From Anaerocolumna sp. MB42-C2 (lineage in GTDB: Bacteria; Bacillota; Clostridia; Lachnospirales; Lachnospiraceae): 64,000 bases of DNA. Position numbers and translations under genes: made by a program. The notes beneath the pieces were generated by a model, which saw only the letters and a program-made list of their open reading frames with translations, did not search any database and was not told where the DNA came from. Where the stretch lies: NCBI RefSeq assembly GCF_030913705.1, contig NZ_CP133190.1:3053501-3117500 (forward strand), given 5' to 3'. This document shows positions 8,297 through 25,613 of this stretch, piece by piece; the stretch's first letter is position 1, and each line of letters opens with the position of its first letter.

Positions 8297-10297
8297 TCAT
8301 CTTAAGTGCTTACCCAGAACAGCTACACCATATGCCTCAAGTTTTATAGTATTAACAACTTTTTGATCTGTTAGAAAATCTGTATATTCTTCATTTACAG
8401 CTATAACTGTATTGTAATTATTATGATTCAGAATAAATTTAACATGGTTTTTTCCATCTGTAGTATCTACAACCTCTATTCCTTCCTGCTCATAAAGTCT
8501 TGTCTCAATGCCGGCCTGATTACAGAGATATTTTGTAAAATTGCTTCTTGCCTTATCATCCAAATCGCAAGCTAAATAATATACGGTACCTTTTCTCGTC
8601 AAACATGGAGTTCCTGCAAAATAACTTTCCGTATATAACCCCAAAACCTCTGCATCCTCAGGAGTCACGATATCACACCAGATATCAGCCGTACCGGACC
8701 CAAAGATACCTGCTACTGAAGTTGATTTTTCAAACTGAGGGTCATAATCATTCACTTTTACACCGGTCAATTCTGCAAGCGGTCCCGGTATCGTTTGCGG
8801 CAGCATTCTATTATATTCATCTTTAAAAGCTGACCGGAAAGTTATAACTAAAGTGCCGCCCTTTGCTGCATAGCTTTCCAGATTATTTTTAGCCTCCTCC
8901 GAAACAAATGCCAAAGCAGGTGCCAATACCAGGGAATACTCTGATAATTCGTCCTCCGCCTGTACAAAATCAACCGGAATATTCATATCATAAAATGGCT
9001 TATAAAACGATAGCAAGAGATTATCATATTGAAACCCTTCTACATTCTGAAAGATCGTATGGCACCACTCCGTGTCAAAAGATTTAATAATTGCCGCCCT
9101 TGCTTTCGGCATTAAAGAACCAACTCTTAGACTTAATAGCTCCATTTCTTCACCGGTTCGCATTATTTCTGCATATCTTCTGTTTTCTTTTCCATCATGA
9201 CCTAATATGCCGTGCCAGTTTTGCTCCGCACCAAAGGTACACGCTCTCCATCTGAAATATACTACCGTATCAGCACCATTCGCAACTGCTTCATAGGTCC
9301 ATAATCTGAGCTTTCCCGGATCCGGTGAGGGACCCATTTTACTCCACCCGCATGGCCCGCTCTGCTGTTCCATTACCCAGAACGGTTTTTTCTTATATGA
9401 CCTTAACAGCGCATGATCTCTGGAAACTGTCTCCATCTTTGCCTTGCCCCATTGAAACTCAATATAATTATCCCAGGAAACAAAATCTAATTCCTTGGAT
9501 AACTTAAAATAATCTATTCCTGTTCCGGAATTGACGGCGGCATCCAAAAGATTACTTGTACATGGCTTATCACTATATTTTTTTATAATATCTACTGACT
9601 CTTTGGTAAAACTTATAATAGAGTCACTGCAAAATCTGTAGTAATCTATCAATAAGCTTGGATTCTGTCCCTGTGTTCCGGAATCAAAATCAAAGCAAGT
9701 ACCTGCTTTCGGTATGATGACTTCGTCAAAGCTATTATAAATCTGACTCCAGAATACAGTTCCATAGCTCTTATTAAGGCATTCAATCGTTTTATATTTC
9801 TTTGCAAGCCAGTCAATAAATTTTTTACGGCATTCTTCACAATAACAGCGGGCCGTATTTCCGTGACCCAGCTCATTGTCTATCTGCCACCCCTCCACAT
9901 AAGGATTTTTCCCGTATCGTTTAGCAATAAGTCCAACCAGCTTCCGGATTTTTTCTCTGTATATTTCACTATTAAAACAATAATGCTTTCTCGTACCAAA
10001 CAGTTTCGTATTTCCATGAATATCTTCCGCTAAAATCCCCGGATATTTATCGATCATCCATTTAGGAGGAGTCGCCGATGGAGTACAAAGAATAATTTTT
10101 ATCCCTTTTTTCCCAAAAAAGTCTATTATCTCATCCATCCAGGCAAATTCATAAACCTCTTCCTTTGGCTCATATAAACTCCATGCAAATTCTCCGACAC
10201 GAATTACTTTTATCTTAGCTTTTAACATTAGCCGGGCATCCTGTTCCCACCGTTCTCTGCCCCAATGCTCAGGATAGTAATCAACACCGATTCGCAT
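8297..10297 (-). CDS. GH42 beta-galactosidase
   Basis: Glycoside hydrolase family 42, 666 residues, no signal peptide, so probably intracellular. It would release galactose from beta-galactosides by a retaining mechanism. The N terminus MRIGVDYYPEHW is typical. The acid/base Glu is in WQIDNELGHG (near 142) and the nucleophile Glu in FWVMEQQSG (near 308). A Cys group (CYCEEC, near 152-157, with an earlier Cys) matches the zinc site of many GH42 enzymes. The trimerisation domain and C-terminal beta domain follow. It is the last gene of the mgl-GH3-GH42 run, 20 bases after the GH3 gene, with a good ribosome binding site. Some GH42 enzymes act on arabinogalacto-oligosaccharides. Confidence 0.93.
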   Translation of the reverse strand: MRIGVDYYPEHWGRERWEQDARLMLKAKIKVIRVGEFAWSLYEPKEEVYEFAWMDEIIDFFGKKGIKIILCTPSATPPKWMIDKYPGILAEDIHGNTKLFGTRKHYCFNSEIYREKIRKLVGLIAKRYGKNPYVEGWQIDNELGHGNTARCYCEECRKKFIDWLAKKYKTIECLNKSYGTVFWSQIYNSFDEVIIPKAGTCFDFDSGTQGQNPSLLIDYYRFCSDSIISFTKESVDIIKKYSDKPCTSNLLDAAVNSGTGIDYFKLSKELDFVSWDNYIEFQWGKAKMETVSRDHALLRSYKKKPFWVMEQQSGPCGWSKMGPSPDPGKLRLWTYEAVANGADTVVYFRWRACTFGAEQNWHGILGHDGKENRRYAEIMRTGEEMELLSLRVGSLMPKARAAIIKSFDTEWCHTIFQNVEGFQYDNLLLSFYKPFYDMNIPVDFVQAEDELSEYSLVLAPALAFVSEEAKNNLESYAAKGGTLVITFRSAFKDEYNRMLPQTIPGPLAELTGVKVNDYDPQFEKSTSVAGIFGSGTADIWCDIVTPEDAEVLGLYTESYFAGTPCLTRKGTVYYLACDLDDKARSNFTKYLCNQAGIETRLYEQEGIEVVDTTDGKNHVKFILNHNNYNTVIAVNEEYTDFLTDQKVVNTIKLEAYGVAVLGKHLR

Positions 10298-10317
10298 ATT
10301 CTCTTCCTTTCATGCAA

Positions 10318-12390
10318 CTACCTAAAAGTAAATTTTACCGACTGAAGATCTTTCATTCTGCTGCAATTTCCAATATAAGCAACATATACGATATCCTCTT
10401 GTACAAATTCATTTTTAGTCTCGTCAAAATATGCCATGTTCTCTTGTGAAACCTGAAGACACACTTCTCTCTCTTCGCCCGGATTCAACTCAATTCTTGC
10501 AAAATCTTTTAGTACCTTTACCGGTCTGTCTACCGAACTTTCCTCACATCCCACATATAACTGTACGATTTCCGCACCTTTTCTGCTGCCGGTATTTTTC
10601 ACTGTTACCGTTATTTTTGCCTTATTATTAAAGCTGGAAATCTGCGGAGCACTAATGTCGAATGTGGTATAAGACAGTCCATAACCAAATGGATAGAGTA
10701 CATTTTTATTCTCTTTTTCCATTTTCGCATATCCGTGATAATATTCATAAGTTATGCTGGTACAATCCGGGTCAAACTCCGGATAATCGTCTTCTTTATA
10801 GGCTACCGTATACGGAAGTTTACCGCTGGGGCATACGTCCCCAAATAAAATATCTGCCAGGGCATTGCCGCCTTCCATACCACTATAGAAAGAAAACAGT
10901 ATTGCCGATACATCCTGCTCCCATTCGTCAATAAGAATGGCGCTGCTCCCCACCAGTGATACGACGGTATTCGGATTAACACCCTTTAATCCTTTTATTA
11001 AATCAATATCCCTTTTATGCAGTCTCATAGATGCCCGGTCTCCGCCCATCTCTGCAATATCACTCCGGTCGGCAAGAAATTCTCCTTCATCCGAATGAAT
11101 ATATCCTGCCACAATAATCACCGCGTCCGCTTCTTTCGCAAGGGATCTTGCTTTTTCCAAATCATTTCCGTCATGATAAAGAATTTCTGCTGTCGGCATT
11201 TTTCTCATCAAACCGCGCAAAGGAGTAACCGTATACCAGGGATGAACTTTACTGGAACCATGATCTCCGATATTTTCTGTATTTCCTAAGACACCCAGAA
11301 CCACAATACGGTTTGTTTTTTCCGAATGAAACGGAAGAATATTTCCTTCATTTTTTAGCAGAACCATGGATTCCTCAGCCGCTCTCCTGGCGACAGCAAT
11401 ATGTTCTGCAGAAGCAATACAATCCGCTTTATATCCCTTAGGATCTTTTCTGGTTTCAAAATAAAGGATGGTTCTTAAAATATACCCAACCGCCTCGTCA
11501 ATATCTTTTTCGTCAATTCTTCCTTCCGCTACTGCATCCGGTAATTGATTCACATAACAGAGAAGGCTTGGCATTTCTATATTCATTCCATTTTGTACCG
11601 CCTTAACAGCATCTTTCACTGCCCAGATAAAGTCAGATAAAGTGAATCCCTCAAATCCCCACATTGTCCTTAGAATATCTTTTAATAAGAGTTTACTTTC
11701 TGATGCCTGGTCACCGTATACTTTATTGTAAGCACCCATTACGGATGCCGCACCTGCTTCTATACAACGTTTAAAATGCGGAAGATAAACTTCGTGAAGC
11801 GTTCTCTTGTCTGCAAAAACATCGGCTTTAAAACGGGCATTTTCAATACTGTTCATGGCAAAATGCTTGATACAGGCCATAACATTTTGGCTCTGCACCC
11901 CTTTGGTAAGCGCCGCACCCATTTCTCCAAGATGATACTGGTCTTCGCCGTAACATTCCTGGGCCCGTCCCCATCTTGGATTACGCGGCAAATTAATGCA
12001 TACACCGCCGAAATAATTACCTCCCTGTGCCCGTATCTCGGCTCCTATTACTTCTCCTATTTTTTCTTCCAGTTCCCTGTCAAACGATGCACCTCTGGCC
12101 ATGGATACCGGAAAACAGGTGGAGGAACCTGCAACCACTCCTCTTGGCCCATCTACAAAACGTACATTAGGTAACCCTAATCTGTCTATGACCTTCGTAG
12201 GATACGGTTTCATATTATAATGTTCGATTACAAATAAGTCATCCATTAATTTTTCTTCTGTCGACTGACCGGACATAATCCCTATTTTTTCATCCAGGGT
12301 TAACTGTGGAATAATCTCGTCTACAAACCTTTTAATATCTTCTTTACTGCAGTCTTCCGTTAATTTCGTATTTTTTACCACATCACGCAT
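10318..12390 (-). CDS. GH3 family glycosidase (beta-glucosidase type)
   Basis: Glycoside hydrolase family 3, 690 residues, no signal peptide. The N-terminal barrel carries RGVVAGSSTCFPVSMARGAS, KHFAMNSIE (the conserved KHF) and GFTLSDFIWAVK with the nucleophile Asp near residue 253. The alpha/beta sandwich follows, then a fibronectin-III-like domain containing YPFGYGLSYTTF. It probably hydrolyses short beta-linked oligosaccharides brought in by the upstream transporter. The start ATG 12390 has GGAGG at 8-base spacing; an upstream in-frame start at 12411 includes that site and is disfavoured. It follows mglC by 22 bases. The exact linkage cannot be read from sequence. Confidence 0.92.
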   Translation of the reverse strand: MRDVVKNTKLTEDCSKEDIKRFVDEIIPQLTLDEKIGIMSGQSTEEKLMDDLFVIEHYNMKPYPTKVIDRLGLPNVRFVDGPRGVVAGSSTCFPVSMARGASFDRELEEKIGEVIGAEIRAQGGNYFGGVCINLPRNPRWGRAQECYGEDQYHLGEMGAALTKGVQSQNVMACIKHFAMNSIENARFKADVFADKRTLHEVYLPHFKRCIEAGAASVMGAYNKVYGDQASESKLLLKDILRTMWGFEGFTLSDFIWAVKDAVKAVQNGMNIEMPSLLCYVNQLPDAVAEGRIDEKDIDEAVGYILRTILYFETRKDPKGYKADCIASAEHIAVARRAAEESMVLLKNEGNILPFHSEKTNRIVVLGVLGNTENIGDHGSSKVHPWYTVTPLRGLMRKMPTAEILYHDGNDLEKARSLAKEADAVIIVAGYIHSDEGEFLADRSDIAEMGGDRASMRLHKRDIDLIKGLKGVNPNTVVSLVGSSAILIDEWEQDVSAILFSFYSGMEGGNALADILFGDVCPSGKLPYTVAYKEDDYPEFDPDCTSITYEYYHGYAKMEKENKNVLYPFGYGLSYTTFDISAPQISSFNNKAKITVTVKNTGSRKGAEIVQLYVGCEESSVDRPVKVLKDFARIELNPGEEREVCLQVSQENMAYFDETKNEFVQEDIVYVAYIGNCSRMKDLQSVKFTFR

Positions 12391-12412
12391 ATTAGATACC
12401 TCCATAATCATA

Positions 12413-13447
12413 TTATTTTTTCTTCGTATATTTTCTCATATCAAGAATTACGGCAAATAAAATAATTAAACCTTTCACTATATATTGCCAATACATATTA
12501 ACTCCGATAAATGCCAAACCATAGTTAATTACCGTAAAGATAAGAACTCCAATCAGTACCCCTCCCACACTTCCGATTCCACCGGTAAGGGAAACTCCTC
12601 CTACTACGGCTGCCGCAACCGCATCTAATTCATATCCGTTACCGGTTGTATTCGATGCACTGCCGATACGTGCAACTTCAAGGGTAGCGGCAAAAGCATA
12701 CATTGCGCCTGCTAATGTATATACAAGAATCTGGATGCGGTCTACATTAACCCCCGATACTTTTGCTGCCTCCGGATTACCTCCGACCGCATACATATAT
12801 TTACCGAATTTCGTCTTGTTCCATAATACCCAGATAATGGCAGCTATTATAATTGCAATAATAATTAAATAAGGAATTCTAAAACTTCCAATACCAATAG
12901 AACCAGTCGCTATTTTAGTAAATTTATAATCAATTCCGCCGATTGGCTGTGCTCCATAGGGAGGACGGTCAAAATAAATGGATGCTAATCCATAGAGCAC
13001 CAACTGCATCGCTAACGTAGCTACAAAAGGTGGCACCTTACATTTTGAAACCACAATACCGGAAAGCATTCCTGCGATTGCGCAGACAGCCATAACCACC
13101 AGAAAAGGTACAATGATTGGAAGCTCTGCAAGATTTGGATACATTCTGTATGCATAAGTAACCTGCTGCATCAGAGACGCTGAAACAACCGCTGCAAATC
13201 CAATCATACGTCCCGCCGATAAATCTACCCCCTGTACGATTAGCACCATTGCCGAGCCTAGAGCAATGATTATTCTTGTTGAGGATTGGGAAAAAATATT
13301 AGTAAAATTATTCAAAGATAAAAATTTAGGTTCAAATGCAGCAATCAATATTAATAGCCCTATTAAAACAACATACATGGCTTTTTGAGCCAATAGTTCT
13401 TTTATATTTATGTTTTTTCTCTCTATACCTTTACTTAAACTACTCAT
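12413..13447 (-). CDS. mglC: Galactose/methyl-galactoside ABC permease MglC
   Basis: Branched-type sugar permease of the MglC/RbsC family, 344 residues, with about ten hydrophobic helices. Conserved parts include QGVDLSAGRMIGFAAVVSASL, KFGKYMYAVGGNPEAAKVSGV and AAAVVGGVSLTGGIGSVGG. It forms the membrane channel for MglB-delivered sugar and is driven by MglA. The start ATG 13447 is chosen because of a GGAGG 8 bases upstream. It is 17 bases downstream of mglA on the same strand. Confidence 0.93.
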   Translation of the reverse strand: MSSLSKGIERKNINIKELLAQKAMYVVLIGLLILIAAFEPKFLSLNNFTNIFSQSSTRIIIALGSAMVLIVQGVDLSAGRMIGFAAVVSASLMQQVTYAYRMYPNLAELPIIVPFLVVMAVCAIAGMLSGIVVSKCKVPPFVATLAMQLVLYGLASIYFDRPPYGAQPIGGIDYKFTKIATGSIGIGSFRIPYLIIIAIIIAAIIWVLWNKTKFGKYMYAVGGNPEAAKVSGVNVDRIQILVYTLAGAMYAFAATLEVARIGSASNTTGNGYELDAVAAAVVGGVSLTGGIGSVGGVLIGVLIFTVINYGLAFIGVNMYWQYIVKGLIILFAVILDMRKYTKKK

Positions 13448-13464
13448 GTTAAATTCCTCCATTG

Positions 13465-15009
13465 CTATACGTATTTTGCTGATGAGCTCATAATCTCTAC
13501 CTGGGAAGTGCTTTTTGCCTCAAATAATCCTGACTGTCTGCCATTGCTCATGACTAAGATTCTGTCACAAATTCCAAGTAATTCAGGCATTTCAGAGCTT
13601 ACAATAATCACTCCTTTTCCCTGTTCCGCCAACTGATTGATTAATTGATATATTTCAAATTTGGCTCCGACATCAATGCCCCTGGTAGGTTCGTCCAGCA
13701 GCAATATGTCAGGATTGGTCAGCAGCCAACGGCCAAGTATTACTTTCTGCTGATTGCCTCCGGATAAATTACCGATAAAGGTTTTTCCCGAAGGTGTTTT
13801 AACATTCATAGCTTGAATCATTTTTGTAACATCCTGCTGAATCAATTTATTATTAAGTACTCCTATTCTATTCGAATAATTCCCTACATTCGCAATAATT
13901 GTATTAAATGCAACACTAAGTGTTGCAAAAATCCCATCTGCGCGCCGTTCTTCCGTGAGCATTGCAAATCTGTTCTTCATAGCCTTAATCGGTGTACTGT
14001 TATCTATTTTTTTTCCGTTAAAAAGAATTTCACCCTTCCCTATTCTCCTGATGCCAAAAAGAGTTTCCAATAATTCGGTCCGGCCTGCTCCTACCAATCC
14101 GGCAACACCTAAAATTTCACCTTCATGTAGTTGGAAATTTACTTCCTTAATTGCCGGTGCAAAGGAAGAAAGATCCTTAACTTCCAGCAACACACCGCCG
14201 ATACTGCTATTTCTAACCGGGTAACGGTTCGTCAATTCTCTTCCCACCATCATTTTAATAATAGCATCAATCGATAATTCCTTAGCTGGTTTTGTCGCTA
14301 TCCATTTTCCATCCCGCATAATGGTTACTTCATCGGAAATCCTCAAAATTTCTTCCATTTTATGGGATATATATATAATACTTGTGTCATTTTTTTTCAA
14401 TTTATCAATGATTCTAAATAAATGTTCAACTTCCTTATCTGTTAATGAGGACGTTGGTTCGTCCATTACAATTACTTTTGCATGATAGGATACCGCTTTT
14501 GCTATCTCTATCATTTGTTTCTGCGAAACCTGAAGTGTTCCGATTCTAACTTTAGGATCAATATCAATATCTAAATCGTTAAAAATAACTTTAGTATCTT
14601 CGTACATTTTCTTTTCATCAACCAGGCCGTTTTTCATCGGATAGCGTCCCAGCCATACATTTTCCATAACAGTCTGATATAGTACCTGATTAAGCTCCTG
14701 ATGAACCATAGAAACCTGATTATGCAAAGCTTCTGCCGGATTGGAAAATTTTATATTTTTCCCGTTAAGTAAAATTTCTCCGCTATCACTAGAATAAATT
14801 CCAAACAAACATTTCATCAGCGTTGATTTTCCCGCACCATTTTCACCCATTAAAGAATGAACCGAACCCCAGCGTAAATGAAAGCTGACATGATCTAAAG
14901 CCTTTACACCCGGGAACTCCTTACTGATTCCTTTCATTTCTAACAGGTATTCACCTTTTTTAACAATGTCTGGAGTTTTATTATTATTGTTTTCCCTGCT
15001 TTTGGACAT
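13465..15009 (-). CDS. mglA: Galactose/methyl-galactoside ABC ATPase MglA
   Basis: Tandem-domain sugar ABC ATPase, 514 residues. Domain 1 has an intact Walker A (GENGAGKST), a signature region around [13 protein letters not shown] and Walker [12 protein letters not shown]. Domain 2 has the usual degenerate P-loop (GLVGAGRTE) with an intact signature LSGGNQQK and [13 protein letters not shown]. This is the normal MglA/RbsA pattern and serves as reference for the degenerate homologue at 16371-17837. The upstream in-frame TTG includes the ribosome binding site; ATG 15009 after AGAGGG is preferred. Confidence 0.95.
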
Positions 15010-15080: not shown

Positions 15081-16202
15081 TTATTTCGCGTACGTAGATT
15101 TTGCTACATCAAGATTTTCTTTCGTAATCGCCTGATAAGGGACACGAACTGCTTTTGCTTCATCTAACTTGAAATCCATACCATCACAGGCATCTTTTCC
15201 ATTGATTAAGTTTTCGGCCATCTTCACAATAACCTGTCCCTGGGTCTTAGCATCCTGCAGTACGGAACCCATTACTTCTCCGCTTTCTATTTTATCTAAC
15301 ATCTCCGGAAGAGCATCAATTCCAATAATCGGAATATATTTTTCACTTTCTGTTCCTTTCATGTTATATCCGGCTGCCTCGATAGAGGTCAATGCTCCCA
15401 GAGCCATTGCGTCATTTGCCGCTACAATACATTCAATCTCATCACCGTATTTGGAAATCCATGCATCCATTTTATCTTTTGCTGTTGCTGTCACCCACAT
15501 ACCGGTATCTTCGGCAAGTAAGTCAATTTCAATTCCTGCATCTTCAATTGTACTTTTTACATAATCTGCTCTGGGCTGGGAAGCGGTATGTCCCGGATCA
15601 CCCATTAAATTGACCAGCTGGAGCTTTCCGTCCCCGTTCTTATCCATATCGGGATTTGCTTTCCATGCATCAGCAACCATCTGCCCTTCAATGGCTGCTC
15701 CATAATCTCCTCCGGTTGAAGTAACCTGATATGCATTCTCATAGGAATCAATAACACCTTCATCAGTTATTTCTTTATTAAAGAAAATAATTGGCAGGTT
15801 ACCAGCTGCTTTTACTTTTTCAATCAGCGCCGGAGCTGCTGTTGTATCACAAACAGATAAGGCAATTACCTTTGCCCCTTTTGCAATCATGGTATCAACC
15901 TGATTTGTTTGTGTCGATTGATCGTTTTGCCCGTCTTCAATATTAGTCTTAAAAATACCGTCCGATGCGTTAACAATACTTTTTCCAATATAGGAATTGA
16001 AATTATCCGAAGCGGAATAGATACCGGCACCTAAAATCGGTAAATCCTTTGAATCCTTTCCTCCTGCTTCCTGCGATGTCTCCTGCACCCCATCCTGTGT
16101 TCCCTTACCTGCATTTTCTCCGGTAGAAGAATTATCTCCGCAAGCTGACAATGATATAATCATTGCACCACATAACAATAAGCTTAATACTTTCCTTCTC
16201 AT
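15081..16202 (-). CDS. mglB: Galactose ABC transporter substrate-binding lipoprotein MglB
   Basis: Periplasmic-binding-protein family (MglB type), 373 residues. A lipobox LSACG at the end of the signal (Cys21) anchors it outside the membrane. Family features are PIIFFNKEITDEGVIDSYENAYQVTSTGGDYGA, the Asp/Asn-rich calcium-loop-like segment DMDKNGDGKLQLVNLMGDPGH, and VAANDAMALGALTSIEAAGY. It would bind galactose or methyl-galactosides; glucose is also possible. AGGAGGG precedes the ATG. It is the first gene of the transport/hydrolase operon and has its own promoter behind a terminator. Confidence 0.93.
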   Translation of the reverse strand: MRRKVLSLLLCGAMIISLSACGDNSSTGENAGKGTQDGVQETSQEAGGKDSKDLPILGAGIYSASDNFNSYIGKSIVNASDGIFKTNIEDGQNDQSTQTNQVDTMIAKGAKVIALSVCDTTAAPALIEKVKAAGNLPIIFFNKEITDEGVIDSYENAYQVTSTGGDYGAAIEGQMVADAWKANPDMDKNGDGKLQLVNLMGDPGHTASQPRADYVKSTIEDAGIEIDLLAEDTGMWVTATAKDKMDAWISKYGDEIECIVAANDAMALGALTSIEAAGYNMKGTESEKYIPIIGIDALPEMLDKIESGEVMGSVLQDAKTQGQVIVKMAENLINGKDACDGMDFKLDEAKAVRVPYQAITKENLDVAKSTYAK

Positions 16203-16323: not shown

Positions 16324-16376
16324 AAAAAAAAATAAGATACAGGTATTTATTTGTGATAAATACCTATATCTTATTT
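16324..16376 (-). terminator. Terminator between the regulatory operon and mglB
   Basis: 20-base arms (16331-16350 and 16356-16375) pair with one mismatch around a 5-base loop, followed on the minus strand by nine T residues. The stop codon of the ABC-like gene lies within the stem. Confidence 0.9.
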
Positions 16377-17837
16377 TCCGCCATATAAAAATTGATATAC
16401 TCCGTCTTCATCGATTACAGTACCATTGTGTACAAATATATTTTCCCCGTCAACCAAATCAATTTCCGAGAACGCCGATAATAGAATGATAACCGTAATT
16501 CCACGATTTCTCAGCATTTCAATCATTAGAACCGTAGTTTCCCTTACATGCACATCTTCCTGTGCAAAGGGCCTTATGCAGACGACTACTTTGGGATTAT
16601 ACAGATACCATTTATAATAAGCCATTCGTTGTAAATCCACAGGTTGAATTTCCTCTGGTTTCTTGTCCAAATCTGCTGCATCAAAAGCCGCATCCAAAAA
16701 ATTTCTAATATTTTTTCTGAACCGTCTGCGTAGCCAAAACATAGGAACTTTTTCGCCTAAAAGCAAACTAATATTTTCAAAAGCAGTCAAATTACCTAAC
16801 AGTTTGTTTTCATAAGCAAATTCTTCAATAAATCCTACTCCCCGCTTAATAGCCTGGCTCATATTACTGACAGAATAGCATTCTCCTTCTATCCGTATAT
16901 TGCCACTCTCAGCTTTTCTTTCTCCTTTTAATAATTCCAATATATGATTCCCGCTTGCGTCATCCATATAATAAATTTTAACAACTTCGCCGCGTCCAAC
17001 CGTAAAAGAGAATTTATGAAGCACTTCCGTAGAAACATGATCAAACTCTATCTCTGATGTCCATTCATCATATTCTACATTATTTACTGGCGCAACCGGA
17101 TTTTTTTTCTCTGTTTCATCTCTGAGAAGCATTTCAAAAACCTTATCACTCTGTACATTTTTTGAATTTACGATTCCCATTGTTTTACCATGTTTGATAA
17201 TAACAAAATTATCTGACCAACGGAAAATAATTTCATCAAAAGCCTCTATGATAAGAAAAGACATCTCAAACTGCCGCATTTTTTTCATCATTGTATAAAC
17301 TTCATCTAATTCCGGTTCTTTTAAAAAGCTTGTTATATTTGAAAAGGCAATAATTTTTTTCCTTTCCGCAAAAGCTTTTACCATCTCAAGAATGACTCTG
17401 TCTTTTTCTGAAAGTGAAACGGGTGAATTATATTTTCGAAGATTGATACCCAACTTATTTTCGATTTCTTTTATTGGTATCTCAAAGGCATGCTTACTTA
17501 CAAAATAGCGAGGTACATAAGAAGAGAATAAAAAAATGTTTTCCTCTACACTTAAGGATCGTATTAATTTACTGGTGCGCTCAATAACAGAAATATTGTT
17601 TTCAAAACATTTCTCATAATTTTCTGTCGAAATTTTGTTATTCTCAAAGGCAATCTTCCCTGTTTGCAGCGGTTTCTTACCTTTGAGAAAATCTACCAAA
17701 ATATTTTTTTCCAAAGCATTATCAAATACAAATCCAAGACTGTCACCATGAAACAGATTAAAATAGAGACTTTTAATAATCTCCACGCCATTATTAAAAA
17801 TACTTCCGTTTTCTACAAATAACAATTCTTTCTTCAC
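16371..17837 (-). CDS. Degenerate tandem ABC ATPase homologue (MglA/RbsA-like pseudo-ATPase)
   Basis: A 488-residue protein with the length and two-domain layout of a sugar ABC ATPase but without the nucleotide-binding motifs. Aligned by eye to MglA of this window, Walker [10 protein letters not shown] is FDNALEKNI (38-46; the Lys is kept, the glycines and Ser/Thr are lost), and the domain-1 Walker [10 protein letters not shown] is AFSNITSFL (near 160). In domain 2, GLVGAGRTE is YMDDASGNH (near 290), the signature LSGGNQQK is IQPVDLQR, and LLLDEPTRG is VVCIRPFAQ (near 415). Flanking hydrophobic spacing is preserved without gaps at both P-loops. The start GTG overlaps the kinase stop (GTGA), indicating translational coupling. 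The frame is intact, so it is a maintained gene, probably regulatory. No function is proven. Confidence 0.8.
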   Translation of the reverse strand: MKKELLFVENGSIFNNGVEIIKSLYFNLFHGDSLGFVFDNALEKNILVDFLKGKKPLQTGKIAFENNKISTENYEKCFENNISVIERTSKLIRSLSVEENIFLFSSYVPRYFVSKHAFEIPIKEIENKLGINLRKYNSPVSLSEKDRVILEMVKAFAERKKIIAFSNITSFLKEPELDEVYTMMKKMRQFEMSFLIIEAFDEIIFRWSDNFVIIKHGKTMGIVNSKNVQSDKVFEMLLRDETEKKNPVAPVNNVEYDEWTSEIEFDHVSTEVLHKFSFTVGRGEVVKIYYMDDASGNHILELLKGERKAESGNIRIEGECYSVSNMSQAIKRGVGFIEEFAYENKLLGNLTAFENISLLLGEKVPMFWLRRRFRKNIRNFLDAAFDAADLDKKPEEIQPVDLQRMAYYKWYLYNPKVVVCIRPFAQEDVHVRETTVLMIEMLRNRGITVIILLSAFSEIDLVDGENIFVHNGTVIDEDGVYQFLYGGK

Positions 17838-18871
17838 GATCTGCTTCCTTCTGAATGAATATTCGGGATCGTAATTCGAACATCCGTCCCCATTCCCGGC
17901 AAACTATATACATGTATACCATATTCTTCCCCAAATAAAAGTTTTATCCTGCGGCATACATTTTTAAGTGCTATTCCTCCGCTTTTACCGCGGTCGTCAT
18001 TTACATAACTTACGGATACCCGCTCAAGTTTAGCATTGAGTTCTTCCAGTTTATCTTCCGGAATTCCGACCCCGTCATCTTTAATACTGATATAGAATTT
18101 TGTATCCGATAGTTCAAAATCTAAAACAACTACTCCGGCATTTGACTTTTTTTCAAGTCCATGAAAAATAGCGTTTTCAATAATTGGCTGCAATGTTAAT
18201 TTAGGAATCTTTAATTGCAAAATATCTTGCTGTTTCTCCGGTAAATTAAAAACTATTTTTAATTTTTCCCCAAATCGGTATTCCTGTATTGCGAAATAAT
18301 TTTCTACGTTTTCTATTTCACTTTCAAGCGTTACCAAATTTTCTGTTTCCGTAATCGTATAGCGAAAAAATTTCGAAAGTGCTTCTGTTATATTAGCAAT
18401 ATCCTCCTTGCCGGCACATAACGCATCACCCCGGATAGCATCTAACGTATTATAAAGAAAATGTGGATTGATCTGATTCTGTAAAGCTAGATATTCTGCC
18501 TGTTTTGTAGAGATTTTAATTGCACTTTGTTTATCTAACATATTATGCAATCGCTGTAAAACCTCTTGTAACTCCGGAACAATTTGATAGTCTTCCTCAA
18601 ATAATTCTTCATAGATTAATCCATCCTTAAACTTTTTAAATTTATTTATTTTTCGCAGATAAGGCAACATGATTTTATGCTCAAATACATATACGAGAAA
18701 GCTGAATAAAAGAATAATAAAAAAGGTACTCCCCCAAAATACTTTAGAATCAATTATTTGATATTGGTATAATACGATAAGAAAAGAAAAGCTCAACGTT
18801 ATTACCATTGCAAATAAAATAAAAACAACAAGAAAAATTTGTTTGGAAAATGTTTCATACTCCTTTTTCAT
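17834..18871 (-). CDS. Sensor histidine kinase, LytS/YesM type
   Basis: A 345-residue membrane kinase with two transmembrane helices (about 11-33 and 44-65) and almost no extracytoplasmic loop, so direct sensing of an outside sugar is unlikely. A short coiled linker precedes the His_kinase domain with the phosphoacceptor motif NQINPHFLYNTLD (His near 137), then HATPase with PIIENAIFHG (N box) and DDGVGIP (G1). It follows the response-regulator gene by 11 bases and overlaps the ABC-like gene by 4. With no sensor domain, the signal may come from a partner protein. Confidence 0.92.
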   Translation of the reverse strand: MKKEYETFSKQIFLVVFILFAMVITLSFSFLIVLYQYQIIDSKVFWGSTFFIILLFSFLVYVFEHKIMLPYLRKINKFKKFKDGLIYEELFEEDYQIVPELQEVLQRLHNMLDKQSAIKISTKQAEYLALQNQINPHFLYNTLDAIRGDALCAGKEDIANITEALSKFFRYTITETENLVTLESEIENVENYFAIQEYRFGEKLKIVFNLPEKQQDILQLKIPKLTLQPIIENAIFHGLEKKSNAGVVVLDFELSDTKFYISIKDDGVGIPEDKLEELNAKLERVSVSYVNDDRGKSGGIALKNVCRRIKLLFGEEYGIHVYSLPGMGTDVRITIPNIHSEGSRS

Positions 18872-18882
18872 TCATCCACCTG

Positions 18883-20490
18883 CTAACGATATAATTTACG
18901 GTATTCCGACGGGGTTAAGCCTGTAATCCTTTTAAAAACCTTTGAAAAATATTTAAAATCAGAGTATCCGACTTCCGTTGAAATATCAATCAGTGACCGG
19001 TTCGTTGATGCAAGAAAATTCTTTGCATTTTGAACGCGGATTTCCATAACATATTCCATAAAGTTTTTCCCGGTTTCCTTCTTAAAAAGTGAAGAAAAGT
19101 AGGCAGGATTAAACCCTATTTGTGCACTGATGCTTTCTAAACTTAATGCTAAATTGTAATTATCGTTAATATATTGCTTTGCCAGACGTATTGGTTTCGT
19201 TTCAGCCAGTTTTATACTTTCACGATATCGTTCCAGCAGTTCATTAATTTCTTTTTCCAGCCCGTTAAAAACATCGTCCGGTGAAAAATAGGTCTCATAT
19301 AATTTTTCATAATATGATACAGGCGGAATAACAAACTCACTGCTAAAGTCTTTAAAACCATAGACTATAATACCAATGACTTCCATATAGCAGTCAAATA
19401 CTAATTTTCCATTTGTGCTGTAAGGAAGCACCCGGATTTTCAGCTCTTGTAATATATTTGAAATCCCATCCGGATTAAACCTTTCCAGATTACCGCGCAG
19501 ATCGTTTTTCATCTGAACATCTACAATATCGCTTACTTCTCTTTTATCTTCCTTTCTATCCTGATACTCAATAATATATTTTTCCTGTCCCGATAATCTG
19601 TTAAAAATGGCTTCTTGGGCCTGTCCCAAAGAACTTGTTAATTCTTTCAGGTTATCAATGACGGAACCGATTCCTATATATACCTTAAGTTCCCGGAATA
19701 TACTCTTTAAATTAATAATGTCGAGTCTCATTTTCTTCAATTGCTTTTTCACTTCAAAAAGAGAGGGCTCATTTACATTAATAATTAAAATAATACTGTC
19801 TTCATATTCCATAAAAATAATTTCCTGGCAATATTTTGTTAACCGTTCTTTCAGCATTTGCTGTATTTTCGTTAATGCCATGTCACGCTCTTCATCACTT
19901 AAGCGCTTGCCTCGGATGAACGGCTGAATTTTTAATACTGTATAATAACCTTCTATAAAATGAGTATGATACTCTTTATTAAACTCCTCGATATTATTTA
20001 AATTTATCTTTTCCGGATTCAATATCAGATCTGCGATAAGTGATTTTTTCACTTTTTCACTGGAACTCTCCGCAAGAGATTTCCATTTGTTCTGCTCGAT
20101 CTGCTGCTCCAATATATTATAATGCTTTTCTTTTATTTTAATAAGTGTGTTTACCAGTTCTTCTTTTCTCAAAGGTTTAAGCAAATAATCCTGTACTCCG
20201 TAATGAATTGCATTTTGGGCATATTCAAAATTACTGTATCCGCTGATAATAATAAAGCTAATATCCGGATAGGCTCCCTTTGCTTGTTTTATCATCTCAA
20301 GGCCATCGCAATTTGGCATCCGGATATCCGAAATAACAATGTCAGGTTTATTTTCAATGATATATTCCAAAGCAGTCTGGCCATCATGTAAGATATCTAC
20401 AACTTCTAAATTCATAACTTCCCAGTCAACGAGATGTAAAATCAATTGACATACTTTTACTTCATCATCAACAATTAGTACTTTAAGCAA
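18883..20490 (-). CDS. Response regulator, YesN/AraC type
   Basis: A 535-residue response regulator: receiver domain (residues 1-120) with acidic pair DD at 8-9, phosphoacceptor Asp55 in VISDIRMP and the conserved Lys in DYLLKPL; a long middle region (about 150-420); and a C-terminal pair of AraC helix-turn-helix motifs (SLESISAQIGFNPAYFSSLFKKETG, LIDISTEVGYSDFKYFSKVFKRITG, PSEYR end). The start is TTG after GGAGG. It is the first gene of the regulatory operon. Its probable target is the mglB promoter with 20-bp-spaced repeats. Confidence 0.93.
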   Translation of the reverse strand: MLKVLIVDDEVKVCQLILHLVDWEVMNLEVVDILHDGQTALEYIIENKPDIVISDIRMPNCDGLEMIKQAKGAYPDISFIIISGYSNFEYAQNAIHYGVQDYLLKPLRKEELVNTLIKIKEKHYNILEQQIEQNKWKSLAESSSEKVKKSLIADLILNPEKINLNNIEEFNKEYHTHFIEGYYTVLKIQPFIRGKRLSDEERDMALTKIQQMLKERLTKYCQEIIFMEYEDSIILIINVNEPSLFEVKKQLKKMRLDIINLKSIFRELKVYIGIGSVIDNLKELTSSLGQAQEAIFNRLSGQEKYIIEYQDRKEDKREVSDIVDVQMKNDLRGNLERFNPDGISNILQELKIRVLPYSTNGKLVFDCYMEVIGIIVYGFKDFSSEFVIPPVSYYEKLYETYFSPDDVFNGLEKEINELLERYRESIKLAETKPIRLAKQYINDNYNLALSLESISAQIGFNPAYFSSLFKKETGKNFMEYVMEIRVQNAKNFLASTNRSLIDISTEVGYSDFKYFSKVFKRITGLTPSEYRKLYR

Positions 20491-20711: not shown

Positions 20712-22562
20712 TTATTGATAGTATTGTGCCTGAGCATTCCATAACTCATAATACTTTCCATTGCTATCTTTCAGAAGTTCATCATGTGTTCCGCGCTGAA
20801 TAATCCCCCCTTGATCAAATACGAATATTCTTTCACAGAATCTACAGGATGAGAGTCTATGTGAAATAAATATGGCCGCTTTTTCACCAACAATCTGATT
20901 GAATTTTGTATATATTTCTGATTCAGCAATGGGATCAAGTGCTGCAGTTGGCTCATCAAAAATAATGAATGGAGCATCCTTATAGAAAGCTCTTGCAATT
21001 GCAAGCTTTTGTTCTTCTCCCCCTGATATATCCACACCCTCAACATCTACATTCTTATATAGGTACTGTTCAAGCTTATTTGGTAAACTTTCAGCTTTCT
21101 CATTAAGACCTGCCGTCTTTAATGCATCCCATACCCGCTTTTCGTCATAATGAACAGATGCTGCAACATTTTCGCCCATTGGAAATGCAAAGACTTTAAA
21201 ATCCTGAAATACAACAGAAAATAACTCAAGATATGTTTCACGCTTATAATTTTCGATACTAATTCCATTCAAAGTGATATACCCTTCCTGGGGCTGGTAA
21301 AATCCACATAATAATTTAATCATTGTAGTTTTTCCAGAACCATTAACTCCAACGATAGCTGTCTGGCTGTTTGAAGTTATCTTAAAAGATACATTCTTCA
21401 ATGCATATTCATCTGTAGAGGGATACTTAAAACTTACATTATGAAATTCGATTGTAAAGCCGCTTTGTTCTTTTGGTATCCTCTCGCCTTTTGAAGATAC
21501 ACTCGATAAATCGATATATTCATACAAAACTTTCAGATAATCATTGTTGCTGATGATTTGTGACATAGAGACAAAGAGATTCTGAATAGAAGAAATCAGT
21601 ATTACGATGGATGCGTAACTTTGTGATACATTACCTAAACTGATATATCCTTTAAGTGCTCTTAAACCAATGACACCATAGGTAAGTCCTCCGATAAATG
21701 CCCCAATGATTATATTGGAACCAAAATACATTTGTATCAGTCTGGATCTTCTGATTAAAATATTCATCCAGGGTTTACGTGCTTTATCTCGGATCTCACC
21801 AATGATTAAATCTCTTTGGTTAAAGATATGTATGTCTTTCGCTGCTTTATCATCTTCCATATAGTTAAAATGGTAATAATCAATATAACGATTTGTGGCA
21901 CAATTTTTGTAAAGGCCAAATTCCTCTTCGCTTTCTTTTTTTGAATTCCTTACAGTTAATGTGATACAGCCGATAACAATTATGGTATACGACAAGCCAA
22001 CTCCCAATGAAGCAAAATTATTAATTTCTCCTGAGGTTTTTATAAACACTCTTATAATGATAATAACCGCAGTTATCAATGAGATACTATTGGCCACAAG
22101 GCTTGTAATCAAGTGGGCAACGCTGGTAATACCTCCATTTATCATAAACATGGAGCCCACAATCCTGGAATGCAGCTCATTATATTTTGGATCTTCCATT
22201 TTGGCGTAATCTAAATTCTGCTTAATATTATTAAGATATTTTTTAAATTCATGATGAAATAACACATTCCTGATATTTATCTTTTCTAGTAAAAAAACAG
22301 ATAATATATTAAAAATTAATGTGCCTGCCGTTGTTATAAGAACGTAGCGGATCAAAATCGCAGGATTTCTCTCTCCGATTAATTCATCAATAATCAAAGA
22401 GGACATACAGATTGCGATATAAGGAGTTAATGCATCAATGAATGCTTTCATCACATTGTTCTTTAAAATATTAGGCGATAGTTCAGAAATTATGGACAGT
22501 GCTCGTTTTATCAAACTTATGTTCTCTGAAAAACTAACTTTTTCCCCTTTCTTTCTTTTCAC
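20712..22562 (-). CDS. ABC exporter half-transporter, second subunit
   Basis: Fused membrane/ATPase ABC exporter, 616 residues. The N-terminal transmembrane domain (about 20-340, six helices) is followed by an ATPase domain with Walker A GVNGSGKTT, Q-loop VVFQDFK, signature ISGGEEQK, Walker B IIFDEPTAALDP and switch ISHRLSS. All catalytic residues are present. The start GTG overlaps the stop of the upstream half-transporter (GTGA), so the two are coupled and probably form a heterodimer. The substrate is unknown; peptides, lipids and drugs are all possible. Confidence 0.9.
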   Translation of the reverse strand: MKRKKGEKVSFSENISLIKRALSIISELSPNILKNNVMKAFIDALTPYIAICMSSLIIDELIGERNPAILIRYVLITTAGTLIFNILSVFLLEKINIRNVLFHHEFKKYLNNIKQNLDYAKMEDPKYNELHSRIVGSMFMINGGITSVAHLITSLVANSISLITAVIIIIRVFIKTSGEINNFASLGVGLSYTIIVIGCITLTVRNSKKESEEEFGLYKNCATNRYIDYYHFNYMEDDKAAKDIHIFNQRDLIIGEIRDKARKPWMNILIRRSRLIQMYFGSNIIIGAFIGGLTYGVIGLRALKGYISLGNVSQSYASIVILISSIQNLFVSMSQIISNNDYLKVLYEYIDLSSVSSKGERIPKEQSGFTIEFHNVSFKYPSTDEYALKNVSFKITSNSQTAIVGVNGSGKTTMIKLLCGFYQPQEGYITLNGISIENYKRETYLELFSVVFQDFKVFAFPMGENVAASVHYDEKRVWDALKTAGLNEKAESLPNKLEQYLYKNVDVEGVDISGGEEQKLAIARAFYKDAPFIIFDEPTAALDPIAESEIYTKFNQIVGEKAAIFISHRLSSCRFCERIFVFDQGGIIQRGTHDELLKDSNGKYYELWNAQAQYYQ

Positions 22563-24400
22563 TCTTCTACCCCCTTGGTTTCGCTCTTATAGTATTGACG
22601 TTGTATTTCAAATAGTTCTTTATATTTTCCGGATAATTTCATTAATTCATCATGGGTTCCGCTCTCTGCAATTGTTCCCTGATCTAACAGTATAATGCGG
22701 TCACAGAATCTTGTAGACGAAAGCCGATGCGAAATATAGATTGCAGTACGATTTTTAGTTAAATCATTATATTTTAAATACATCTCCTGTTCTGCAATCG
22801 GATCCAGTGCAGCCGTTGGTTCATCCAGAATAATCAATGGAGCTTCCTTATATATGGCACGTGCCAGCATTAATTTCTGTGTTTCTCCACCAGATAAGTT
22901 AATTCCACCCTCAATCACAGAAGGTACCAATTCTGTGTCCAAACCATTTGGTAACGATCTAATCTTTTCATTTAATCCTGACAATTTTACAGCCTTGTGC
23001 AATTTTTCCTTGTCGATGCTGCTATCGTTGTTATATCCAATGTTTCTTGCTATACTCATTGGAAGAAGACACACATTCTGAAATGATGCACTAATCAACT
23101 TGTAATATTCATCTCGATTATACTCACGTATATCAATTCCATTGAACAAAATTCTACCTGATATCGGTTCTAGCAATCCGCAAACCAGCTTAATAAGAGT
23201 AGTCTTTCCGGCACCGTTATTCCCGACAACTGCAAGCTTCTCACCTTTATTTATCGTTAAATTGATATGATTCAGTATGGTATAATCACTGCCCTCATAT
23301 TGAAAACTGACGTCTTCAAAACTTATTTCACATGGAGCCTTCACATCTGGGATCGCAGCTCCCTTTTCTCTCTTCATATGATCCTTTGTCTCAATCAAAT
23401 AGCGATAATCATCCACACGATAATTGGCATTGGATAAACCACTGATTCTTGATACGATTTGGCTTAACCATTGCCCGAATCCAGTTATTACACCAAAATA
23501 TAGCGTAAAATCACCAATTGTCATATTGGAATGGAACATTCTCCATAACAAATAAAGATACGCCCCTCCATTACGGACAAATACCAGTAAAACTTCGATC
23601 AGCTGCTGATTTGTATACTTTCTCTGTACTTTTCTTTCTAATTCTTTAAATTCATTAATATACTTACTGGTGTTTTCATTAATCCAATTCATCATTTTAT
23701 AAATTTTTATATCTTTTGCCATAAGTGAATTGCTGATATCGTCTAAAACATAACCAAGACGTCGATTCACAACTGCTCTCTCTTCTTTAACACTAATCTC
23801 CCATTGCTGTATTTTGATTGAAACAATTCCATCAATCAAGTATGTAACAAGCAATATTAATATAACAATTGGATTTAGCAATAAAATAACTGTACTAAAT
23901 GAAATTAGTCCCAGCATGCTCTTTAAGAACTCTACAAGATTGATATAGTAGGATGCCATGTTAACGTACACGTTTCTGTTTATGGCACTATGCCCCTTTT
24001 CAATCTTCATTTTTCCCTCTTTTGACATTGCTATGCTATAATCCATGTCCAGGGACTTCCAGTCTTTTTCTATGTAAAACCGCATATTTAAGATTCGTAT
24101 CGCACCAATAATCACACTTTGTTCCGAGAAAAAACCAGCATATCTGAAAATAATTAATACCACGGTTAAGATACCTATACGAAATAAAAATTCACTGTCA
24201 GAAACAGACTGACCAATGGAATCTAATACTACTTTAGGAAAATAAATTCCTACTAATGAAACGATTAATTCCGATAAAATACGTAAAATCCATACAAACA
24301 CCGGTTTTTTCTCAAATATCCATTGCTCCTTGATCATAAACCGAAAATTACTTAATACACCATGTGTTGCATGTTCCTTATCTTTTTGTTTGACCTTCAT
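22559..24400 (-). CDS. ABC exporter half-transporter, first subunit
   Basis: A 613-residue fused ABC exporter, first of a two-gene unit. Six predicted helices in the first 340 residues; ATPase domain with Walker A GNNGAGKTT, Q-loop ASFQNVCLLP, signature LSGGETQK, Walker B LIILDEPTAALDP and switch ISHRLSS. Both subunits keep a catalytic Glu, so this is not the asymmetric type with one dead site. GGGGAA precedes the ATG. No precursor peptide, protease or modification gene is adjacent, so peptide export is not specifically supported. Confidence 0.9.
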   Translation of the reverse strand: MKVKQKDKEHATHGVLSNFRFMIKEQWIFEKKPVFVWILRILSELIVSLVGIYFPKVVLDSIGQSVSDSEFLFRIGILTVVLIIFRYAGFFSEQSVIIGAIRILNMRFYIEKDWKSLDMDYSIAMSKEGKMKIEKGHSAINRNVYVNMASYYINLVEFLKSMLGLISFSTVILLLNPIVILILLVTYLIDGIVSIKIQQWEISVKEERAVVNRRLGYVLDDISNSLMAKDIKIYKMMNWINENTSKYINEFKELERKVQRKYTNQQLIEVLLVFVRNGGAYLYLLWRMFHSNMTIGDFTLYFGVITGFGQWLSQIVSRISGLSNANYRVDDYRYLIETKDHMKREKGAAIPDVKAPCEISFEDVSFQYEGSDYTILNHINLTINKGEKLAVVGNNGAGKTTLIKLVCGLLEPISGRILFNGIDIREYNRDEYYKLISASFQNVCLLPMSIARNIGYNNDSSIDKEKLHKAVKLSGLNEKIRSLPNGLDTELVPSVIEGGINLSGGETQKLMLARAIYKEAPLIILDEPTAALDPIAEQEMYLKYNDLTKNRTAIYISHRLSSTRFCDRIILLDQGTIAESGTHDELMKLSGKYKELFEIQRQYYKSETKGVEE

Positions 24401-25046: not shown

Positions 25047-25613
25047 TTAATAGAAATCTTTCGATACTGCTTCTGTCGCTTTATCAATAAAAGCAGCAAT
25101 TTTGCTGGGACTTTCCTTCATTCCACTATTAACCCACTTTTTTATTATGGCTATACTGCCATATGCGGTAAATGTATACCATTTATCAAATAATTTTTGA
25201 TCAAAATATTTAACTTCTTTCATCCATTTCTCAATATTTATATCGTGGCTGATATAAAGAATACGTTCTAATAATTCTTTGTCCCCATTCTCTGAAAATA
25301 ATACTTCACATATGTTACTATTTGCTTTTATATACTTGCAAATTTCATATGATAGTTTTCCAGACGCTTCAAGGTTCATAGTATGTTCCACAACCTGTCT
25401 GATTTCTTCATATAACTCATCTTCTATAATTGATAAAAGTTCGAACTGATTCGTATAATGCGAATAAAAAGTATTGCGGTTTATATTTGCTTTCTTGCAT
25501 ATATCTGTAACTGTAACTTTGCTGATAGGATGCTCTTTCATAAGTTCCAGTAAACTGTTTTTTATAACCATCTTTGTATATCTCACTCGTTGGTCTGCTT
25601 TTTCGTATGCCAT
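25047..25613 (-). CDS. TetR/AcrR family regulator
   Basis: A 188-residue regulator. The N-terminal helix-turn-helix (residues about 12-60: TKMVIKNSLLELMKEHPISK, DICKKANINRNTFYSHY) is typical of TetR; the rest is a helical ligand domain of the DhaS-like type. It is divergent from the DUF422-like membrane protein gene. A palindrome over the divergent gene's start site suggests it represses that neighbour. Confidence 0.88.
   Translation of the reverse strand: MAYEKADQRVRYTKMVIKNSLLELMKEHPISKVTVTDICKKANINRNTFYSHYTNQFELLSIIEDELYEEIRQVVEHTMNLEASGKLSYEICKYIKANSNICEVLFSENGDKELLERILYISHDINIEKWMKEVKYFDQKLFDKWYTFTAYGSIAIIKKWVNSGMKESPSKIAAFIDKATEAVSKDFY

Follow-up and report, generated by a model that had tools for sequence, protein, structure and literature searches.

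What an ABC ATPase without a consensus ATP site does behind a histidine kinase gene, and beside a sugar importer that has an active ATPase of its own, is the question raised by this locus. The window analyzed here, the whole stretch of 64,000 nucleotides from Anaerocolumna sp. MB42-C2, contains an open reading frame (16371-17837, minus strand), called DEG in the following, which encodes a degenerate tandem ABC ATPase of the CUT2 (RbsA/MglA) type. A response regulator, a kinase and this pseudo-ATPase, in that gene order, make up a unit (the triad RR-HK-DEG). We consider it likely that DEG is a retired CUT2 sugar-importer ATPase which docks on a permease and forms the input subunit for a two-component system; it would probably report the activity of the sugar transporter to the kinase rather than power transport. 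The features of the locus are as follows.

12413-13462, minus strand: mglC-like CUT2 permease (BPD_transp_2; Pfam).
13465-15009, minus strand: mglA-like active CUT2 ATPase with nine of nine catalytic-site residues (799.9 bits, cut-off 828).
15081-16202, minus strand: mglB-like galactose/glucose-type solute-binding protein (SBP; NCBIfam 281 bits, cut-off 420).
16330-16376, minus strand: terminator-like hairpin with a 20 bp stem and a U tract, overlapping the end of DEG (folding; z -6.9).
16371-17837, minus strand: DEG, pseudo-ATPase, tandem CUT2-type NBD of 488 aa with GTG start (ORF, Pfam, NCBIfam, alignment, AlphaFold).
17834-17837, minus strand: GTGA start/stop overlap of HK and DEG (ORF coordinates).
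17834-18871, minus strand: HK, PF06580 (LytS/YesM-type) histidine kinase of 345 aa with two TM helices and no sensor domain (Pfam, model).
18883-20490, minus strand: RR, response regulator of 535 aa with receiver, GGDEF-like middle part and AraC-type HTH (YesN-like; Pfam).

The initial annotation had described an intact frame, coupled to the kinase by GTGA and located beside mglBAC, and all of this is borne out. DEG consists of 488 open codons with a GTG start that overlaps the HK stop by 4 nt (gap -4), and the mglB-, mglA- and mglC-like genes lie downstream of it on the same strand, with the hairpin separating the triad from mglB. GH42 and GH3 glycosidase genes follow directly after mglC (8297-12411) and point to the use of galactosides as the pathway under regulation. 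Upstream of RR two adjoining ABC exporter-type genes (616 and 613 aa) occupy positions 20712-24400, and a TetR-type gene follows at 25047-25613. A shared regulator site upstream of RR and mglB was considered and rejected: the longest common word had 9 nt, and 70 of 200 shuffles were equally good. The same genome contains a second complete triad (L049; G000:C1:2427000-2446000) beside an RbsB-like CUT2 transporter.

Pfam detects ABC_tran on DEG with 41.2 bits in two stretches. The ten top NCBIfam matches are all CUT2-type ATPases, with the models for YtfR, AraG, RbsA, the xylose ATPase and MglA scoring highest, and all are far under their curated cut-offs (the best, YtfR, 120 vs 850 bits). DEG thus shares the tandem NBD homology to RbsA/MglA and stays outside the curated families. 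An AlphaFold model computed with 62 family members as input contains two complete NBDs (pLDDT 88.7). Foldseek ranks tandem NBDs first with this model, the top match being the tandem NBD of a peptide importer, and a sequence search of the PDB returned ABC ATPases of other kinds. The fold of DEG is a real tandem NBD.

Aligned with MglA, the motif positions of DEG are free of gaps and the letters are substituted: half-1 Walker A reads FDNALEKNI for GENGAGKST, the Walker B motifs AFSNI for VMDEP and VCIRP for LLDEP, the signature IQPVDLQ for LSGGNQQ, and Arg and Ala replace the Q-loop Gln and the H-loop His. In a script count over nine catalytic-site residues, a set of our own choice, DEG keeps one (the half-1 Walker A Lys position) and the MglA of the window all nine, so that the consensus ATP site of CUT2 ATPases (half-1 Walker A and B, Q and H, half-2 LSGG) is missing in DEG. 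The initial annotation had read the motifs as replaced in both halves; this stands, save for the half-1 Walker A Lys position, which is still Lys. It had also contrasted DEG with MglA and RbsA as proteins that keep their ATPase motifs. The MglA of the window does so, but canonical CUT2 ATPases already have one weak site, with Arg for Lys in half-2 Walker A, no LSGGQ in half 1 and no His in half 2. Since normal CUT2 ATPases thus have one consensus site only, DEG has lost that single site plus the remaining motifs.

The loss extends to the relatives. When DEG and 19 relatives are aligned with the window MglA and 18 further CUT2 ATPases, the DEG group proves to have lost most of the catalytic residues, and the place of half-2 Walker B is taken in most of its members by [ILV][QR]P[FL] instead of DEP. 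Of 175 kinase-linked proteins, 95 have Gln at the half-2 Walker B Glu position and 75 still have Lys at the Walker A Lys position, as does the window DEG. The loss is graded: nine of the nine residues are left in L209, six in L304 and five in L176, L177 and L187. Since Lys often remains at its position, and some relatives retain further residues, members of the DEG family may, as far as residues can tell, still bind nucleotide.

HK is a PF06580 kinase (His_kinase 92.9 bits, HATPase 43.4 bits) with an intact motif and the invariant H137. In its model (pLDDT 77) helices 8-36 and 42-82 are joined by a short turn and followed by the kinase core. HK has the two TM helices and the extracellular stretch of less than about 25 aa of an intramembrane-sensing kinase, 25 aa being the extracellular limit for this class. 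The genome has 48 PF06580 matches, 45 of them in frames of 518-650 aa; the short frames are the two DEG-linked kinases (345 and 352 aa) and a 335-aa fragment. The latter was dismissed as a counter-example, being the 3' part of a frame-broken kinase gene. At L168:6971-8781 of the same genome a PF06580 kinase is split into frames of 276 and 327 aa. Unbroken kinases recovered as ORFs in the set of 63 loci described below (n=58) measure 333-368 aa, and in a wider set of linked kinases two TM windows were found in 151 of 174, one in 12 and none in 11, with a median gap of 8 residues between the windows. Lengths, TM windows and the window model agree that the near-absence of a sensor domain, which the initial annotation had noted for HK, is true of the linked kinases as a set. 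The exception is L187, with a kinase of 565 aa, 218 residues between the membrane windows and an NBD that is among the least degenerate (five of nine).

Starting from DEG, 61 of 63 loci proved to have a same-strand kinase directly upstream, 59 of them by ORF (including L052, with a broken kinase frame) and L125 and L126 by tblastn; L056 (G136), a match of the DEG search that holds an active ATPase only, was excluded from the 63. The two misses are L128, whose region has no kinase or regulator, and L165, at a contig start. L128 (6615-8069) and L238 each have a solitary, intact DEG next to a gene that by eye resembles isoleucyl-tRNA synthetase, and no kinase or regulator was found in either region.

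In the converse search a kinase profile was run over 397 genomes, and the 60 matches beyond the DEG set that scored between 404 and 255 bits were taken. A DEG-type ORF of at least 340 aa was present in 47 of these regions and was recovered by tblastn in four more (L178, L191, L220, L224), the ORF picker having missed some genes that overlap by more than 90 nt. Five regions contained a shortened DEG-type ORF (L169, L194, L197, L200, L213); in the last four it measures 218-254 aa, lies near a linked-type kinase, and the gene order is partly changed. The rest comprises a fusion (L204), a partial match (L214), an intact ATPase (L209) and L227, the only region without a DEG-type NBD, whose kinase has 601 aa and a Cache sensor domain. 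A chance neighbourhood is ruled out by this search in both directions.

Position behind a kinase and loss of the catalytic residues go together. Among 103 NBDs encoded behind the kinase 102 keep 0-5 of the nine residues and one (L209) keeps nine; among 96 other tandem ATPases 90 keep nine, one keeps eight and five are DEG-type themselves. A larger census gave 172 kinase-linked proteins out of 175 with 0-5 residues, two with six (one of these, L251, being an active ATPase cut at the region end) and one with nine, vs 140 of 157 others with nine, one with eight, two with seven (cut at region starts) and 14 of DEG type with 0-3.

In L204 (G178) kinase and pseudo-ATPase form one frame of 616 aa (L204:5418-7268), in which a two-helix kinase (residues 24-372, by kinase profile) precedes a DEG-type half (400-613; 80 bits, E 5e-27) with substituted Walker, Q and H positions; Pfam detects the kinase and leaves the NBD half undetected. 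L204 had been a candidate for a long kinase without DEG, which was given up when the frame proved to be the fusion. A search of 61 genomes around G178 delivered a matching fusion frame in G1182 (L310), of the same genus, with 87% identity over residues 1-615, and a match of kinase length only in G1177. Besides the fusion no kinase ORF matching both the kinase and the DEG profile was found in the regions scanned. A ROK-family gene, SBP, permease and active ATPase are located on the same strand as the fusion in L204. Judged from the sequences, the fusion is the best evidence that DEG may act on the kinase itself: it makes contact with the kinase likelier and mere co-expression less likely, and it is silent on the permease.

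The three-gene set was also sought in other genomes, and it was found in the family, in other classes and in Spirochaetota. With a search profile built from 20 DEG proteins and a presence limit of E<=1e-100, DEG is present in 36 of 397 genomes sampled from the family Lachnospiraceae, in 4 of 15 genomes of the genus and in 7 of 398 genomes of the phylum, five of these from other classes. DEG-level scores occur in 13 of 391 genomes of the class, our own included. The class-level profile search gave DEG rows of at least 456 bits and a next row of 300, and in the family-level search rows as low as 338 bits were DEG-type on inspection. In a named collection 80 loci were retained out of 198 relatives; carriers include Anaerocolumna aminovalerica, Robinsoniella peoriensis, Blautia schinkii, Ruminiclostridium cellobioparum and Paenibacillus dakarensis. 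These loci partly duplicate sampled genomes (L230/G099, L238/G533, L290/G024), and the main counts use the sampled genomes. Two Sphaerochaeta (Spirochaetota; L299, L301) in the collection have a complete triad and a CUT2 transporter, which suggests horizontal transfer. The linkage to the kinase, on which the initial annotation had staked its proposal, is therefore conserved in relatives from several classes and a second phylum, up to fusion in two species. Spread by plasmids was rejected, all 52 plasmid records that match DEG being below 60% identity; the best 10 of the 52 show about 22% identity, eight annotated as sugar-type ABC ATPases and two without a feature.

A CUT2 permease is present in the region of 54 of the 63 triads, and active ATPase, permease and SBP all share the region with DEG in 50. 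No CUT2 permease was found in the region of nine loci, three of which (L127, L131, L133) lie at contig ends. The fetched regions of L042, L198, L203, L207 and L226 contain, besides the triad, a BPD_transp_2 permease and a Peripla_BP_4 protein, and yielded no active CUT2 ATPase; in L198 and L207 the genes form one run in the order SBP, permease, RR, HK, DEG. Such a layout would be expected of a receptor, not of an importer. Weak points are the SBP of L203, which is split over two frames, with DEG three genes behind the kinase, the SBP of L226, of which only the first 90 residues match, and the DEG of L207, which scores 72 bits against the DEG profile and fails the Pfam cut-off. Neighbours of other transporter types are TctA and TctB in L198, TctA, a TctC-like protein and DctM in L203, and in L226 a peptide-type permease together with an SBP_bac_5 protein. 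L198 and L207 both come from the genome G690, which encodes three full CUT2 ATPases at other places, and an ATPase could possibly serve these two loci in trans. L155, L253, L266, L283 and L297 are also without ATPase and were left uncounted, as regions or contigs end near their transporter genes. In L221 a permease is present and the SBP absent, and in L163, L181, L185 and L201 an additional permease lies directly behind DEG, next to a separate transporter. Binding-protein ORFs of about double length (~594-635 aa) occur in the triad loci L135, L149, L150, L154, L155, L263, L265 and L289.

The dN/dS of DEG is 0.04-0.18 in seven close pairs, two of which share a row (an eighth pair is saturated), and that of neighbour genes having a value is 0.01-0.30. 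DEG is under purifying selection, and dN/dS together with synteny rules out a decaying pseudogene. Its mean pairwise distance is 0.71 vs 0.48 for the active ATPase. All kinase-linked NBDs fall on one side of a branch, with a support of 99 in FastTree (99 rows) and an SH-aLRT of 99 in IQ-TREE (59 rows); the IQ-TREE tree omits 15 long-branched rows, and others randomly, and the FastTree tree retains the long-branched rows. L209 and L187 adjoin the active ATPases (support 99 and 97), a placement that is suggestive only because the branches are long. L209 (G133:C26), whose tandem ATPase retains all nine catalytic residues behind a kinase of 392 aa, possibly represents the ancestral state.

Over 43 loci the distances of DEG correlate with those of HK (0.93), RR (0.92), ATPase (0.83) and permease (0.81). 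The corresponding values toward permease and ATPase are 0.72 and 0.76 for HK and 0.70 and 0.74 for RR, below those of DEG, and the sign of this difference held in at least 98% of 300 subsampling draws. The partial correlation between DEG and permease given the ATPase is zero, so that co-evolution cannot separate permease from ATPase as the partner of DEG. N100 and N355, an Asn soon after the Q-loop of each half, are kept in 99-100% of 144 DEG rows and 143 active ATPases, unlike most ATP-site residues, which are not kept in the same DEG rows; we take this post-Q-loop region to face the coupling helix of the permease. Marks specific for DEG and absent from active ATPases are E4 (100%), R7 (96%, Phe in the window), P415 and F424. 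The Asn in both halves, the regions with SBP and permease and no ATPase, the additional permeases and the distance tracking indirectly point to a docking of DEG on the permease. Together with the conserved kinase linkage this lends partial support to the interpretation in the initial annotation, by which DEG may dock on MglC or compete with MglA and report the transporter state to the kinase.

In the mechanism that we favour, DEG would occupy the cytoplasmic face of the CUT2 permease dimer in place of RbsA/MglA. A sugar-loaded binding protein would dock on the outside and shift the permease, and DEG would follow this shift without an ATP cycle. In contact with the sensor-less kinase, as may hold for unfused members too, it would alter kinase activity, and the AraC-type regulator would raise or lower the expression of adjacent genes for transport and catabolism (here mglBAC, GH3 and GH42). 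A more far-reaching version is offered tentatively, since we lean slightly against it as a whole: SBP, CUT2 permease and pseudo-ATPase would form a non-transporting transmembrane sensor for the sensor-less kinase, in a family that arose once from an active ATPase (with L209 and L187 near the active ATPases on the tree), lost the kinase sensor as the ATPase died, was fused in one genus and stands beside another transporter class in some loci (TctAB; TctA, TctC-like and DctM; peptide-type permease).

As an active ATPase shares the permease in most loci, DEG need not touch the permease, and it could instead regulate the kinase by sensing a cytoplasmic ligand, such as a sugar phosphate or a nucleotide, in a remodelled pocket. 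The kinase as the most constant neighbour (61 of 63) and as fusion partner in two species, the conserved marks found in DEG only and the often kept Walker A Lys position would all fit, but the frequent CUT2 permease (54 of 63), the loci with a permease beside DEG and no active ATPase found, and the closer co-variation of DEG than of HK or RR with the transporter genes make this reading unlikely. The kinase fusion, the sensor loss in the linked kinases and the regions without any active ATPase found would be left unexplained if DEG were a dominant negative that slows uptake in competition with MglA for the permease, with the kinase linkage reflecting co-expression only; the complete fold and the 50 loci with active ATPase, permease and SBP in one region agree with such a role, which we nevertheless regard as improbable.

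An odd but working ATPase, binding or slowly hydrolyzing nucleotide at a non-canonical site, is suggested by the graded series from L209 through L304 to L176, L177 and L187 and by the Lys position present in the window DEG. It is hard to credit for a protein that lacks the Walker B Asp/Glu, Q, H, SGG and the Walker A Gly and Ser/Thr, and in a family where Gln takes the half-2 Walker B Glu position in 95 of 175 proteins. The fast evolution of DEG would also be that of a transient remnant, left by a recent MglA duplication and in functionless decay, but the low dN/dS, the intact frames and synteny conserved across classes and the family-specific residues leave this a negligible probability.

If DEG is indeed an input subunit docked on a permease, the triads would represent a family of bacterial pseudo-ATPases converting an ABC importer into a signalling receptor, and would supply the input for kinases without a visible sensor. 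They would also offer a natural system in which ABC permeases signal by conformation apart from transport driven by ATP, and ABC-ATPase-fold proteins encoded behind a kinase gene should then not be counted as transporter parts. Among the matches listed from open-access PubMed Central, none describes a sugar-type ABC ATPase that is dead and paired with a kinase.

Several known systems invite comparison. RbsA, MglA and YtfR have the same tandem NBD architecture and are the nearest sequence kin of DEG, which differs from them in the lack of catalytic residues, the separate branch (SH-aLRT 99) and the gene position behind a kinase. In MalK-MalT the activity of a transcription factor depends on the transport state through a sugar-importer NBD, the active ATPase MalK, which acts on MalT directly; DEG, as proposed, would likewise be an NBD-type regulator by transport state, but a degenerate one. 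PstSCAB-PhoU-PhoR uses an active ATPase and the helical adaptor PhoU, in place of which a pseudo-ATPase is found here. There the state of an ABC importer is reported to a kinase, as outlined in passages of a review of transport-coupled sensing in general (PMC6978683).

Unlike the kinase of XylFII-LytS, HK has no periplasmic SBP-binding sensor domain, and a cytoplasmic pseudo-ATPase is added. XylFII-LytS is likewise linked to an AraC-type regulator and a CUT2 transporter. According to excerpts of PMC9769921, its LytS-type kinase in Clostridium beijerinckii is signalled by a sugar-binding protein, which, as cited there from Li et al. 2017, binds the periplasmic four-helix domain of the kinase.

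In Bce modules (BceAB and BceRS) transporter and intramembrane-sensing kinase form one complex (excerpts of PMC10314905 and PMC7828314), which is primed by nucleotide binding of the ABC transporter (PMC10314905, in part) and whose permease has a large extracellular loop (PMC7828314, in part). The partner genes of DEG are of CUT2 type and include neither such a Bce-type permease nor BceA. The ligands of Bce modules are peptide antibiotics, whereas here the ATPase is degenerate, the permease is of the CUT2 sugar type and the kinase belongs to PF06580 and is paired with an AraC-type regulator. Common to both would be a kinase that has no extracellular sensor domain and is signalled by an ABC transporter complex, as is proposed for the DEG system. 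On the best reading, the DEG system works like a Bce module but outside the Bce family.
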